The notes below the pieces were generated by a model that was not told the DNA's origin, did not search any database, and saw only the letters and a program-made list of their open reading frames with translations. Below are positions 9,832 to 18,753 of a stretch of DNA of 64,000 nt, piece after piece (position 1 is the first letter of the stretch; every line of letters begins with the position of its first letter). The translations under genes and the position numbers were made by a program. The DNA lies in assembly GCA_019429305.1 (NCBI GenBank), contig JAHYIR010000001.1, positions 186,001 to 250,000 of the forward strand, in the 5' to 3' direction. Source of the stretch: Candidatus Cloacimonadota bacterium (GTDB taxonomy: Bacteria > Cloacimonadota > Cloacimonadia > Cloacimonadales > JAJBBL01).

Positions 9832-9907
<76 letters not shown>

Positions 9908-13707: not shown

Positions 13708-13762
13708 TGCTTTCTTGTCATTTAACGGGAGAGTGTGGTGTTCTGAAAATCGGTTGTTTTTT

Positions 13763-13802
13763 AATCGGTGAGTCGGGGGTTCGAATCCCCCTTTAAGCTC
13801 CA
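13763..13802 (+). repeat. tRNA-Thr 3'-end fragment (att-like repeat)
   Basis: A 40-bp stretch matching tRNA-Thr from the anticodon stem to CCA. The last 31 bp differ from 9877-9907 at one base (CCCCCTTTA against CCCCCTTTT). No 5' half is present, so it is not a functional tRNA. It fits an attR-type end of an island. The rest of the gap to the next gene at 13993 shows nothing I can assign. Confidence 0.8.
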
Positions 13803-13992: not shown

Positions 13993-14718
13993 ATGTTGAA
14001 TAATTCAATCAAGGGAATAGATTATTCATATCTTCGAGCTCTATATATCAATTGCACTCTCAAACCATCTCCTGAACTATCGCATACTGAAGGTCTAATG
14101 AAGAAATCAATGTATATCATGGAAAAGCTGGGGATCAAAGTTGAATATCTTCGTTTTATTGATTTTGATATTGCTCCGGGAGTTTATCCGGATATGACAG
14201 AACACGGCTTTGAAAAAGATGATTGGCCTATTATCAGTGAAAAAGTATTTGCTTCCAATATTCTGATCGTAGGAACTCCCATTTGGTTAGGAGATAAGTC
14301 CTCAGTTTGTACACATCTAATAGAACGTCTTTATTCTGAATCTGGAAAATTGAACAAACAGGGGCAGTACAAATATTATGGTAAAACAGGGGGTTGTATT
14401 ATTACAGGTAATGAAGATGGTGCAAAACACTGTGCCATGAATATTCTTTACTCATTGCAGCATATTGGTTACACAATACCGCCTCAAGCAGATGCGGCAT
14501 GGTTAGGTGAAATTGGACCCGGTCCTTCATATCTTGATGAAGATTCTGGGGCACAAAGTAATAATTTTACCAACAGAAATACTACTTTTATGACCTGGAA
14601 TCTTATACATCTGGCACATATGTTAGAGCAATCAGGTGGAATAACAGCTTATGGTAATCAAAGGTCTGAATGGGATGCAGGTGAAAGATTCGGTTATCCC
14701 AATCCGGAATATCGATAA
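13993..14718 (+). CDS. Flavodoxin-fold NADPH-dependent FMN reductase-like protein
   Basis: A 241-residue protein of the flavodoxin-like NADPH-dependent FMN reductase group. LRALYINCTLKPSPELSHTE is the first strand and phosphate loop, and ILIVGTPIWLGDKSS is the flavin-contact strand. A strong AAGGAGG lies 6-7 bases before the ATG. It is 77 bp upstream of the multi-rhodanese gene on the same strand and is probably the first gene of the ergothioneine-like operon. A role in supplying electrons for persulfide, disulfide or thione redox chemistry is possible but purely contextual. The next gene has a separate ribosome site, so independent expression is also possible. Confidence 0.75.
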   Translation: MLNNSIKGIDYSYLRALYINCTLKPSPELSHTEGLMKKSMYIMEKLGIKVEYLRFIDFDIAPGVYPDMTEHGFEKDDWPIISEKVFASNILIVGTPIWLGDKSSVCTHLIERLYSESGKLNKQGQYKYYGKTGGCIITGNEDGAKHCAMNILYSLQHIGYTIPPQADAAWLGEIGPGPSYLDEDSGAQSNNFTNRNTTFMTWNLIHLAHMLEQSGGITAYGNQRSEWDAGERFGYPNPEYR

Positions 14719-14795
14719 GGATAACAAACTGTCGTAAACAAATTTCTGTTATCAGCTATAGATAATTATTTTTTTGAGGATAATTACAATCGGAT

Positions 14796-16097
14796 ATGAG
14801 TGAAGTTAGGGAAAAATATCATCTGATCGAAACAGAAGAATTACAGGGAAAACTGGAAGATGAGAACCTGATAATTTTAGATGTACGTTCAATCGATGCC
14901 TATAATGGCTGGAAATTACAGAGGGAGATAAGGGGCGGACATATTAAAAGAGCTAAAAGTCTTCCGGTTAAATGGACAAAATATATTGATTGGATAGAAG
15001 TAGTTCGGCATAAACATATTCATCCTGAGAATGAGATTGTAATCTACGGCTATACTCAAGATGACATGCTAAAGGTTGCAGAAATGTTTAGGGCAACCGG
15101 ATATAAAAAAATATCGTTGTACTATGATTTTATTTCTGAATGGGTGCCCAAAGAAAAGTATCCGATGGAAAAACTGAAACGTTATCGTCATTTAGTTCCA
15201 GCTGAATGGGTTAAAAGTTTAACAATGGGAGAACCAACATCAGAATATGATAATAATCAATTTGTGATCGTACATGCTCATTACCGTAATCGAAACGCTT
15301 ATTTAAGTGGTCATATACGTGGTGCTATTGATATGGATACTTTAGCACTGGAGGCACCTGAAACATGGAACCGTCGTACTCCTGAAGAACTGAGAAAAGC
15401 TCTGGAATTACATGGAATAACTGCCGATACTACAGTTATTTTATATGGTAAGTATATGTCACCTGACAATAACGATGAATTTCCCGGCAGTGCAGCCGGA
15501 GATATTGGTGCTATGCGTTGTGCACTCATTATGTTATACTCTGGAGTTAAGGACGTTAGAATACTTAATGGGGGTTTTCAGTCTTGGATTGATGCCGGTT
15601 TTGAAATTTCAACAATAGATGAGCCCAAAAAACCTGTTATAAGTTTCGGTATCAATATTCCTGCTATACCCGAGTTAATAGTTGATACTGCTGAGGCAAA
15701 GGAAATGCTCGCTTCTCCAAAATCTGAACTGGTCTGTGTCAGAAGTTATCCGGAATACATTGGTGATGTGAGTGGTTATAACTATATAGAAGCCAAAGGT
15801 CGTATTCCCGGCGCAATTTTTGCAAATTGTGGAAGTGATGCCTATCACATGGAGAATTATCGGAATGTTGATCATACTGCTCGAGAGTATCATGAGATAG
15901 AAGCTATTTGGAGCAAGTTGGGTATAACTTCCGATAAACGATTAGCTTTCTATTGCGGAACCGGTTGGAGAGGAAGTGAAGCGTTTATCAACGCTTGGCT
16001 CCTGGGTTGGCAAAATATAGCAGTATATGACGGTGGTTGGTTTGAATGGAGTAAAGATAAAACAAATCCTTATGAAACAGGCATACCAAAAGAATAA
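14796..16097 (+). CDS. eanB: Multi-domain rhodanese sulfurtransferase, EanB-like (anaerobic ergothioneine synthase candidate)
   Basis: Three rhodanese-like domains can be traced: about 10-125, 135-275 and 290-425. Each has the ALPHA-beta pattern with a GHI..A or GRIPGA segment and a G(G/D)W or GGFQSW end. Only the third has the catalytic loop CGTGWRGSE (Cys about 387); the first two have Tyr/Gly in that place. EanB of Chlorobium is a multi-domain rhodanese with a single essential persulfide Cys that converts hercynine to ergothioneine without oxygen. The next gene is a histidine methyltransferase homologue, the expected EanA partner. I therefore infer EanB function. An ordinary thiosulfate sulfurtransferase is the alternative. 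The end of this gene lies about 10 bp before the chosen start of eanA. Confidence 0.75.
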   Translation: MSEVREKYHLIETEELQGKLEDENLIILDVRSIDAYNGWKLQREIRGGHIKRAKSLPVKWTKYIDWIEVVRHKHIHPENEIVIYGYTQDDMLKVAEMFRATGYKKISLYYDFISEWVPKEKYPMEKLKRYRHLVPAEWVKSLTMGEPTSEYDNNQFVIVHAHYRNRNAYLSGHIRGAIDMDTLALEAPETWNRRTPEELRKALELHGITADTTVILYGKYMSPDNNDEFPGSAAGDIGAMRCALIMLYSGVKDVRILNGGFQSWIDAGFEISTIDEPKKPVISFGINIPAIPELIVDTAEAKEMLASPKSELVCVRSYPEYIGDVSGYNYIEAKGRIPGAIFANCGSDAYHMENYRNVDHTAREYHEIEAIWSKLGITSDKRLAFYCGTGWRGSEAFINAWLLGWQNIAVYDGGWFEWSKDKTNPYETGIPKE

Positions 16098-16107
16098 AAA
16101 AATATTT

Positions 16108-17109
16108 ATGCATCCCTCTACCAGTTCAGAAAACTTTCAAACTTTCGAAATAACTAACCTTTTACCGGAAGTCGGGAATGATGAATTTATTAAAACTATC
16201 TTAGATGGGCTTCTCTCTCCCAGGAAATATATTTCCAGTATATTTTTCTATGATGAACTGGGATCGAAATTATTCAAAGAGATAACAAATTTACCCGAAT
16301 ATTATATCCCAAAGCTGGAAATGCAGTTAATAAAAGAAACAGCGAGTAATTTACAAAAGTCATTGAAAGGTGTAGATATAATTGAGTTTGGTTGTGGTGA
16401 TTGTTCAAAAATCTCAATCATATTGGATGCTATTTCAAAAGAAGATCTCGCTTCTATTCGCTATATTCCGATAGATATCAGCAGAAATTCTGTAGTTGAA
16501 ACGGCTAATATTCTTTCTCAACGTTATGCTAATCTCAGAATTCATGGCATTCTGGCTGATTTTATCCAACAATTGGATTTGATAACGTATAGGGAAAGAA
16601 AGATATTTTGTTTCTTTGGTAGCACAATAGGAAATCTTTACCCAGATCAGAGAGTTGAATTTTGTTCTAAGATTAGTAATATAATGCAAAATGATGATAT
16701 TCTATTGCTGGGTGTTGACATGGTTAAAGATAGAAAAATACTCAACAATGCGTACAACGATAGTCTTAAGATCACTGAGCGTTTTAACAAAAATATCCTC
16801 AACGTAATCAATAACCTTGTGGGGACTACTTTCAATCCAAATTATTTTGAACATGTTGCCTTCTTCAATGAAAAAGATTCTCGCATAGAAATGCATCTAA
16901 AAGCTACTGAGAATATCGAAACTTATTCCCCTTATTCAAACAAAGTAATTCGGATCAAGAGAGGAGAAACAATACATACGGAAAATTCCTATAAATTTAC
17001 CTACGATCATATTAAACATCTGAGTGAGTATGCTAATCTTACTATCGATCAAATATTCACTGATAAAGATAGTTGGTTTTCTCTGGTTAAGTTTGGCAAA
17101 AGTAGTTAA
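16108..17109 (+). CDS. eanA: EgtD/EanA-like histidine N-alpha-methyltransferase
   Basis: Belongs to the EgtD family, which trimethylates L-histidine to hercynine using S-adenosylmethionine. Family landmarks are FYDELGSKLFKEITNLPEYY, the SAM loop EFGCGD (about residues 93-98), YIPIDIS, FFGSTIGNLYP, IEMHL and TENSYKF, where the Glu and Ser match the histidine-binding segment. The 333-residue length fits bacterial EgtD. I chose ATG 16108 because homologous sequence starts soon after; upstream in-frame ATGs at 16027 and 16072 overlap eanB, and no strong ribosome site distinguishes them, suggesting translational coupling. The gene sits between the rhodanese and sufS-like genes. No EgtB sulfoxide synthase (oxygen dependent) is present, consistent with an anaerobic route. 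Confidence 0.85.
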   Translation: MHPSTSSENFQTFEITNLLPEVGNDEFIKTILDGLLSPRKYISSIFFYDELGSKLFKEITNLPEYYIPKLEMQLIKETASNLQKSLKGVDIIEFGCGDCSKISIILDAISKEDLASIRYIPIDISRNSVVETANILSQRYANLRIHGILADFIQQLDLITYRERKIFCFFGSTIGNLYPDQRVEFCSKISNIMQNDDILLLGVDMVKDRKILNNAYNDSLKITERFNKNILNVINNLVGTTFNPNYFEHVAFFNEKDSRIEMHLKATENIETYSPYSNKVIRIKRGETIHTENSYKFTYDHIKHLSEYANLTIDQIFTDKDSWFSLVKFGKSS

Positions 17110-17114
17110 ATAAT

Positions 17115-18332
17115 ATGATTGATGTTGATAAGATTCGGGATGATTTCCCCATATTAAATAGTAAAGTTTATGGGAAACCTCTCGTATATCTTGATAATGC
17201 AGCTACAACCCAAAAACCTCGCTGTGTAATAGAAAAAGTAAGAGACTTTTATTATCATTCAAATAGCAATATTCATCGAGGAGTTTATTATTTAAGTGAA
17301 ATTGCTACTGAAGGGTATGAAGAAGCTCGTGTTAAAGTACAAAAATTTATCAATGCTAACACAGCAAACGAGATAGTATTTACCAGTGGGACAACCGGAG
17401 CCATTAACCTTTTAGCTGATTCATTTGGAAGAGCTTTCATTACTAAAGGTGATGAGATAATAATTACAGAGATGGAACATCATTCCAATATTGAACCCTG
17501 GAGAGTTCTATGCAAACGAAATGAAGCTTCTCTCAAAGTAATCCCCTTCGAAGATTCAGGTAAGCTAATGATTGAAAAAATCCCGGCTATGATTAATGAG
17601 AGAACAAAATTAATCGCTGTATGTCATGTATCTAATGTGCTGGGTGTTATAAATCCGGTAAAGAGAATAACTCAAATTGCTCACCGAGAAGGAATCCCCG
17701 TGCTAATAGATGGTGCTCAGTCAGCACCTCACATATCAGTAGATGTACAGGATGTTGACTGTGATTTTTTTACTTTCTCAGGGCATAAAATGTATGCAGA
17801 AACCGGTATTGGTGTCCTCTACGGTAAAGAAAAGTATTTGGAAAAGATGCCTCCCTATCAAACAGGTGGTGGAATGATTCAGAGCATGGATAATTTTAAG
17901 ACTACTTATGAGGATTTACCCTTGAAATTTGAAGCTGGTACACCAAATTATGTTGGCGCAATAAGTCTTGCCAATGCGATTGATTATATGCAGAGTATTG
18001 GAATTGCTAATATCTTTAATCACGAGCTTGACGTTATTAATTACGCTTTAGAAAAACTTAAAAGAGAAGAACACTTAATCATTTATGGTAAAATATCCCC
18101 TCACTGTGGATCTGTTTCATTCAATATTGCAGGTATTCATCCTCAAGATGTAACCTCAATATTAGACAAGTTTGGTATTGCCGTACGTTCAGGTTATCTT
18201 TGTGCTCAACCAACAATTGATCATTTTAAGATTAAAAGTTTAATTCGTTTGAGTGTTGGCATTTATAATACTCGAAAAGAAATTGATCTCTTCATAGAGG
18301 GAGTTAATAAAGCAAAAAGTCTATTATTATAA
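17115..18332 (+). CDS. sufS: SufS-family cysteine desulfurase
   Basis: Group II cysteine desulfurase that takes sulfur from L-cysteine as an enzyme persulfide and releases alanine. The PLP lysine is in FSGHKMY (Lys225). The persulfide Cys363 lies in RSGYLCAQP, where most SufS proteins have RSGHHCAQP. NIHRGVYYLS and the LDNAATTQKP N-terminus are typical. It is full length at 405 residues. It starts 5 bp after eanA and is followed 10 bp later by a SufE-like gene, without sufB, sufC or sufD nearby. That context points to sulfur delivery to the rhodanese EanB rather than Fe-S assembly. It could still serve Fe-S biogenesis globally, so the role is inferred from position. Confidence 0.88.
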   Translation: MIDVDKIRDDFPILNSKVYGKPLVYLDNAATTQKPRCVIEKVRDFYYHSNSNIHRGVYYLSEIATEGYEEARVKVQKFINANTANEIVFTSGTTGAINLLADSFGRAFITKGDEIIITEMEHHSNIEPWRVLCKRNEASLKVIPFEDSGKLMIEKIPAMINERTKLIAVCHVSNVLGVINPVKRITQIAHREGIPVLIDGAQSAPHISVDVQDVDCDFFTFSGHKMYAETGIGVLYGKEKYLEKMPPYQTGGGMIQSMDNFKTTYEDLPLKFEAGTPNYVGAISLANAIDYMQSIGIANIFNHELDVINYALEKLKREEHLIIYGKISPHCGSVSFNIAGIHPQDVTSILDKFGIAVRSGYLCAQPTIDHFKIKSLIRLSVGIYNTRKEIDLFIEGVNKAKSLLL

Positions 18333-18342
18333 GCAACTGTTT

Positions 18343-18753
18343 ATGAAAATCAAAGAAAACCAAGATATCATGATCAAAGAATTCACCTCTCTCAATGGCT
18401 GGTTAGAGAAATACGAATATCTTATAGATATGGGAAAGAAACTTCCTGAGATGGATAAAAAACATAAAACTCAAGAAAATCTAGTCAGTGGTTGCCAATC
18501 TCAACTCTGGATTACTGCTGAATTAGTAAATGACAAGCTTGTTATTTTTGCTGACAGTGATGCAATGATAACAAAAGGCATTATTGCAATGGTACTAAGT
18601 TTTATAAATAATCATACCCCGAAAGAGATTTATGACTCACATTTTTCTTTTCTTGATGAAATGGGTTTAACAACCAATCTCTCCCCTTCCCGTGTCAACG
18701 GATTAAAATCCATAATTAAACGAATCAATGAACTCTGCTTATCCTATATGTAG
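18343..18753 (+). CDS. sufE: SufE-like sulfur acceptor
   Basis: A 136-residue SufE family protein. The sulfur-accepting Cys51 is in VSGCQSQLW, the motif shared by SufE and CsdE, and MDKKHKTQENLV precedes it as in the family. SufE receives persulfide from SufS and passes it to an acceptor. It is the last gene of the tight run eanB-eanA-sufS-sufE, with gaps of 5-10 bp between the later genes. Here the acceptor may be the EanB cysteine, although this has not been shown for any EanB that I know of. The start at 18343 has little ribosome site; ATG 18370 is an in-frame alternative. Confidence 0.88.
   Translation: MKIKENQDIMIKEFTSLNGWLEKYEYLIDMGKKLPEMDKKHKTQENLVSGCQSQLWITAELVNDKLVIFADSDAMITKGIIAMVLSFINNHTPKEIYDSHFSFLDEMGLTTNLSPSRVNGLKSIIKRINELCLSYM

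Follow-up and report, generated by a model that had tools for sequence, protein, structure and literature searches.

A probable oxygen-independent ergothioneine operon with a dedicated SufS-SufE sulfur relay in a Candidatus Cloacimonadota genome

The stretch of DNA analysed here, hereafter the window, comprises 64,000 nucleotides of contig JAHYIR010000001.1 (positions 186,001 to 250,000, forward strand) of Candidatus Cloacimonadota bacterium, assembly GCA_019429305.1, a genome that is 99.9% complete. Between positions 13993 and 18753, its plus strand carries a cassette of five open reading frames in the order FLD-EanB-EanA-SufS-SufE, FLD being the flavodoxin-fold protein encoded first (Table 1). 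An original prediction, made from the letters of the sequence, had described five tightly packed plus-strand genes, the last four 5-10 bp apart, for a flavodoxin-fold protein, a multi-rhodanese, an EgtD-family methyltransferase, a SufS-type desulfurase and a SufE-like acceptor; the coordinates and gaps match the sequence, and profile and PDB matches agree with all five family assignments. The intergenic gaps amount to 77 bp between FLD and EanB, 10 bp between EanB and EanA, 5 bp between EanA and SufS, and 10 bp between SufS and SufE. The second of these is counted from the EanA start at 16108, which is also the start of the homologue in the Cloacimonadota locus L001; longer in-frame alternatives are found at 16072 and 16027. 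A strong ribosome-binding site, AAGGAGG, lies ahead of FLD at about 13980. Such spacing suggests that the five genes are co-transcribed; scans for promoters and terminators found no excess over shuffled sequences.

Table 1. Features of the cassette in the window (positions from the first letter of the window).
Feature	Position	Strand	Basis
FLD, flavodoxin-fold protein of the FMN_red family, 241 aa, first cassette gene	13993..14718	+	PF03358, PDB 5mji
EanB, rhodanese-type ergothioneine synthase, 433 aa	14796..16097	+	65% identity to C. limicola EanB (6ktv); EanB clade
EanB catalytic loop CGTGWRG, with Cys387	15954..15974	+	Alignment with C. limicola EanB
EanA/EgtD, predicted histidine N-alpha-methyltransferase, 333 aa	16108..17109	+	TIGR03438, PF10017
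SufS-family cysteine desulfurase, 405 aa; pyridoxal phosphate (PLP) Lys225, catalytic Cys363	17115..18332	+	TIGR01979, active-site motifs
SufE sulfur acceptor, 136 aa; acceptor Cys51 in GCQSQLW	18343..18753	+	PF02657, E. coli SufE match

The rhodanese is an EanB. Its top PDB matches are the crystal structures of EanB from Chlorobium limicola (E=2e-196), to which it aligns with 65% identity over 422 residues, nearly its full length, and its bit score reaches 656 for EanB as against 275 for YnjE and at most 79 for other rhodaneses. In the tree, the window and C. limicola proteins lie inside one supported set, away from the ordinary thiosulfate sulfurtransferases, as had been anticipated. The CGTGWRG loop already noticed in the original prediction is present, and its Cys387 aligns with the essential Cys412 of the C. 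limicola enzyme, Tyr328 and Arg392 being the equivalents of Tyr353 and Arg417. In C. limicola EanB, Cys412 is the persulfide cysteine and Tyr353 the acid/base tyrosine (PMC10903977). These catalytic Cys, Tyr and Arg residues are invariant across 100 EanB sequences.

The adjoining methyltransferase scores 324 bits against TIGR03438, the EgtD equivalog (cut-off 290.9), and 316 bits against PF10017. It keeps all eight checked residues (Y39, F47, Y56, N166, Y206, M252, E282, and S284) that we take to form the histidine pocket of Mycobacterium smegmatis EgtD, which is consistent with its predicted action on histidine. EanB-linked methyltransferases at other loci (L003, L027, L060, and about 27 more) fall into two classes according to whether the residue equivalent to EgtD Met252, which bears on specificity, is Met or Ser (rarely Asn); the Ser-class proteins are 25-33% identical to the window EanA, itself of the Met252 class. 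It could be argued that the cassette product is a related thio-imidazole or some other N-methylated compound, since the assignment to ergothioneine is made from sequence and some EanB loci carry the class in which Ser replaces Met252. Against this, the window EanA belongs to the Met252 class, exceeds the EgtD cut-off with its checked pocket intact, and accompanies an EanB closely related to the characterised enzyme, so that a different product appears very unlikely.

SufS and SufE are equally well defined. The former scores 552 bits against TIGR01979 (cut-off 475.1), is about 48% identical to SufS of Bacillus subtilis and keeps both the PLP-binding Lys225, within SGHK, and the catalytic Cys363. 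The latter scores 147 bits against PF02657 (cut-off 27), matches E. coli SufE with E=1e-22 and retains Cys51 within GCQSQ. The genome of the window has one SufS and one SufE, both in the cassette. Its other matches to SufS are a NifS adjoining NifU, a NifS-SelD fusion, and an epimerase-like homologue of the class V aminotransferases. At L082 (1498-3642; G000, C25), a NifS-type cysteine desulfurase is fused to the selenophosphate synthetase SelD. The usual SufBCD client of such a pair is absent: a search for SufB/SufD (PF01458) gave no match in the window's genome, while the control search was positive in 14/14 reference genomes. A separate Rrf2-NifS-NifU set, which can make iron-sulfur (Fe-S) clusters, is present. 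Service to an Fe-S system was considered as the principal role of SufS-SufE in this genome and was rejected, SufB and SufD being absent.

Regarding the phylum, EanB occurs in 3 of 125 Cloacimonadota genomes. Only the window's genome and G061 have SufS, and the same holds for SufE and for FLD; in both, the genes stand in the same five-gene order, and in the remaining 123 neither SufS nor SufE was detected. By the hypergeometric distribution, the two SufE genomes would both be among the three EanB genomes with a probability of 4e-4, adjacency being left uncounted. G061, which holds one and the same record as L001, represents another family of the same order, and its cassette proteins show 61-86% identity to those of the window. 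Because the five-gene order recurs in another family, the cassette is not a chance arrangement, and the gene order that the original prediction expected to see kept in relatives is present.

A related linkage of EanB with SufS and SufE is found in a Bacteroidetes genome, SH-MAG12 (L017, G125). There, EanB is followed by a flavin reductase of the type seen in G023, the third Cloacimonadota genome with EanB, and then by a SufS at the contig end; a second contig starts inside SufS and continues into SufE. This SufE is the sole one found in that genome, whose general suf operon comprises SufB/C/D-like genes, a SufS of its own and a SufU-like protein. Among themselves, the three SufS proteins linked to EanB share 59-70% identity; with the housekeeping SufS proteins compared, they share 48-54%. 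They form their own clade (support 95/79), as do the EanB-linked SufE proteins (99/98), in trees that are limited by few cases and some long branches.

As SufS and SufE co-occur exclusively with the cassette within the phylum and SufB/SufD are absent from the window's genome, the earlier proposal that the pair is a dedicated sulfur supply for EanB gains strong comparative support, with persulfide delivery as its conjectural part. The cassette is thus probably an oxygen-independent operon of the EanA/EanB type for the antioxidant ergothioneine, with a dedicated SufS-SufE relay, a reading held with good confidence on the grounds of gene content and comparison. In this host, EanA would trimethylate histidine using S-adenosylmethionine. 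SufS would form a persulfide on Cys363 with sulfur drawn from cysteine, and Cys51 of SufE would receive that sulfur; Cys387 of EanB would then be loaded either by SufE itself or by a small persulfide or polysulfide that SufE releases, and EanB would put the sulfur onto the imidazole ring of trimethylhistidine.

Several observations weigh against this assignment. The linked cases number only three, two of them from one phylum, and the Bacteroidetes case spans two contigs that are joined through an overlap of 227 bp with 98% identity. A search for EanB relatives yielded 397, of which 80 were kept; among the 99 EanB loci examined, SufS is present in only three, some contigs ending too early to tell, and a neighbouring methyltransferase match is found at 64. 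In G023, EanB and EanA are accompanied by a flavin disulfide-reductase-like gene, and both SufS and SufE are absent. Since this genome lacks the pair and most EanB loci lack a linked desulfurase, SufS-SufE is therefore not a universal requirement. Moreover, the cassette of G061 is immediately preceded on its 5' side by a SufC/SmsB-like pair, which makes a role of SufS-SufE in Fe-S assembly possible and plausible in that genome.

Taken further, the latter observation leads to the view that SufS and SufE serve sulfur mobilisation or Fe-S assembly in general and merely share an operon with EanB, which would use free polysulfide as in Chlorobium. SufS-SufE normally serve SufBCD, polysulfide supports EanB in vitro (PMC10903977), and SufE is missing from G023 and from the Chlorobium-type EanB genomes tested. 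Such a general role is hard to reconcile with a genome that has no SufB/SufD and its own NifS-NifU, with 123 further genomes of the phylum in which neither protein was detected, with SH-MAG12, where the general suf operon has a SufS and a SufU-like protein apart from the EanB-linked pair, and with the separate clades of the EanB-linked SufS and SufE. It is accordingly considered improbable. Among Bacteroidota genomes with EanB, most of those tested have SufE apart from EanB, often beside the housekeeping SufS. A simple reading would be that SufS-SufE is part of the cassette in cells that lack another SufE and are not dependent on polysulfide. Going beyond the dedicated relay itself, it can be suggested, with somewhat better than even confidence, that a specialised branch of SufS-SufE has abandoned Fe-S assembly and now provides persulfide solely to a rhodanese acting in the sulfuration of a small molecule, and that the cassette as a whole can be exchanged as a unit, occurs in two phyla and is carried where the genome is without another SufE.

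The first gene product, FLD, scores 35.8 bits against PF03358 and matches PDB entry 5mji, a 'BRAMP domain protein', with E=4e-38. It also lies near EanB in L060 and L151, and a fragment is found in L149. Because, within the phylum, only the two genomes with SufS and SufE have it, and because it recurs near EanB at L060 and L151, FLD is a member of the cassette. The original prediction had suggested that it may handle the redox step, a role that is unsupported because the chemistry of EanB needs no external redox step: transfer of the sulfane sulfur of Cys-SSH to the trimethylhistidine ring regenerates Cys-SH without outside electrons, and is redox-neutral (PMC10903977). As a conserved accessory, FLD would more likely act on redox state, keeping ergothioneine or the pathway thiols reduced, than take part in C-S bond formation. 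L003, L004, L017, L048, L060, L090, L147, and other loci encode, near EanB, a protein that resembles pyridine-nucleotide flavin disulfide reductases and has CxxxxC in its active site. This protein is a candidate ergothioneine disulfide reductase and may do in other EanB loci the same job as FLD.

The cassette can be compared with several known systems. With EanA and EanB of C. limicola (Clim_1148/Clim_1149), it shares the two core enzymes, the catalytic Cys and Tyr, and presumably O2-independent sulfur insertion. Unlike it, the Chlorobium-type loci checked have an eanA-eanB arrangement with no linked desulfurase, and G293, whose EanB is nearest to that of C. limicola, has no SufE. MES, the metallopterin-dependent ergothioneine synthase of Caldithrix abyssi, likewise serves anaerobic ergothioneine synthesis and has its cysteine desulfurase hard-wired to the sulfur-inserting enzyme, the desulfurase being fused (PMC9516567). 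However, MES is a fused molybdenum/tungsten (Mo/W) enzyme with a NifS/IscS-like domain, whereas the cassette has a rhodanese with separate, co-encoded SufS and SufE, the SufS being a stand-alone protein of 405 aa with no metallopterin domain fused to it. The SUF system, in which SufS-SufE works with SufBC2D, has the same two families with the same catalytic Cys and Lys; in contrast to it, the pair of the window sits with EanB/EanA and in clades of its own. Finally, in vitro systems in which E. coli IscS was added as the sulfur source (PMC11767532) resemble the cassette in that a cysteine desulfurase supplies EanB, but there IscS is an experimental addition with no genomic linkage, and the proposed donor in the cassette is SufS-SufE.

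In agreement with the original prediction, which knew of no described Ean operon with dedicated SufS/SufE, no published linkage of EanB with SufS/SufE was found in the open-licence literature, nor was any ergothioneine paper on Cloacimonadota. The IscS-driven EanB reactions and the fused desulfurase of MES are precedents that lessen the surprise. In vitro, EanB has been supplied with polysulfide or with a desulfurase that the experimenter added; the operon names candidate natural donors. Together with the MES fusion, the SufS-SufE pair suggests that anaerobic ergothioneine synthesis evolved a linked supply of cysteine-derived sulfur at least twice. The range of EanA/EanB is extended to Cloacimonadota, and SufS-SufE could be taken over directly as the donor pair when ergothioneine production is engineered.

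Third-position GC is 24-33% in the cassette genes, below the mean of 37% for the window. Upstream, the 3' end of a tRNA-Thr(CGT) (9832-9907) is repeated at 13762-13802 (41 bp, 90%), 190 bp ahead of the operon; the repeat pair forms an attachment-site-like arrangement and encloses an SDR and a CrtI-like gene. Because the cassette is rare in the phylum, has a low third-position GC, and lies behind a duplicated tRNA-Thr 3' end, it was likely acquired horizontally. The same three signs, rarity being that of EanB, could be taken to mean that the operon, although real, is an inactive or rarely expressed acquisition. All five frames are open and their catalytic residues intact, and selection on the cassette is indicated because the order is kept in another family at the protein identities given above; of the explanations weighed here, inactivity is the least probable.

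Some further features of EanB neighbourhoods may be mentioned. In Salinimicrobium, an aerobic genus, EanB proteins of 68-70% identity occur with no detectable neighbouring EgtD (L006, L014-L016, L020, L022-L024, and L028). Near EanB in L090 (2782-7259), L033, and L074 are genes for large proteins in which CDGSH or Rieske domains are joined to a glutamate-synthase flavin mononucleotide domain or a thiamine pyrophosphate enzyme, and DUF427 recurs near EanB at 25 loci.

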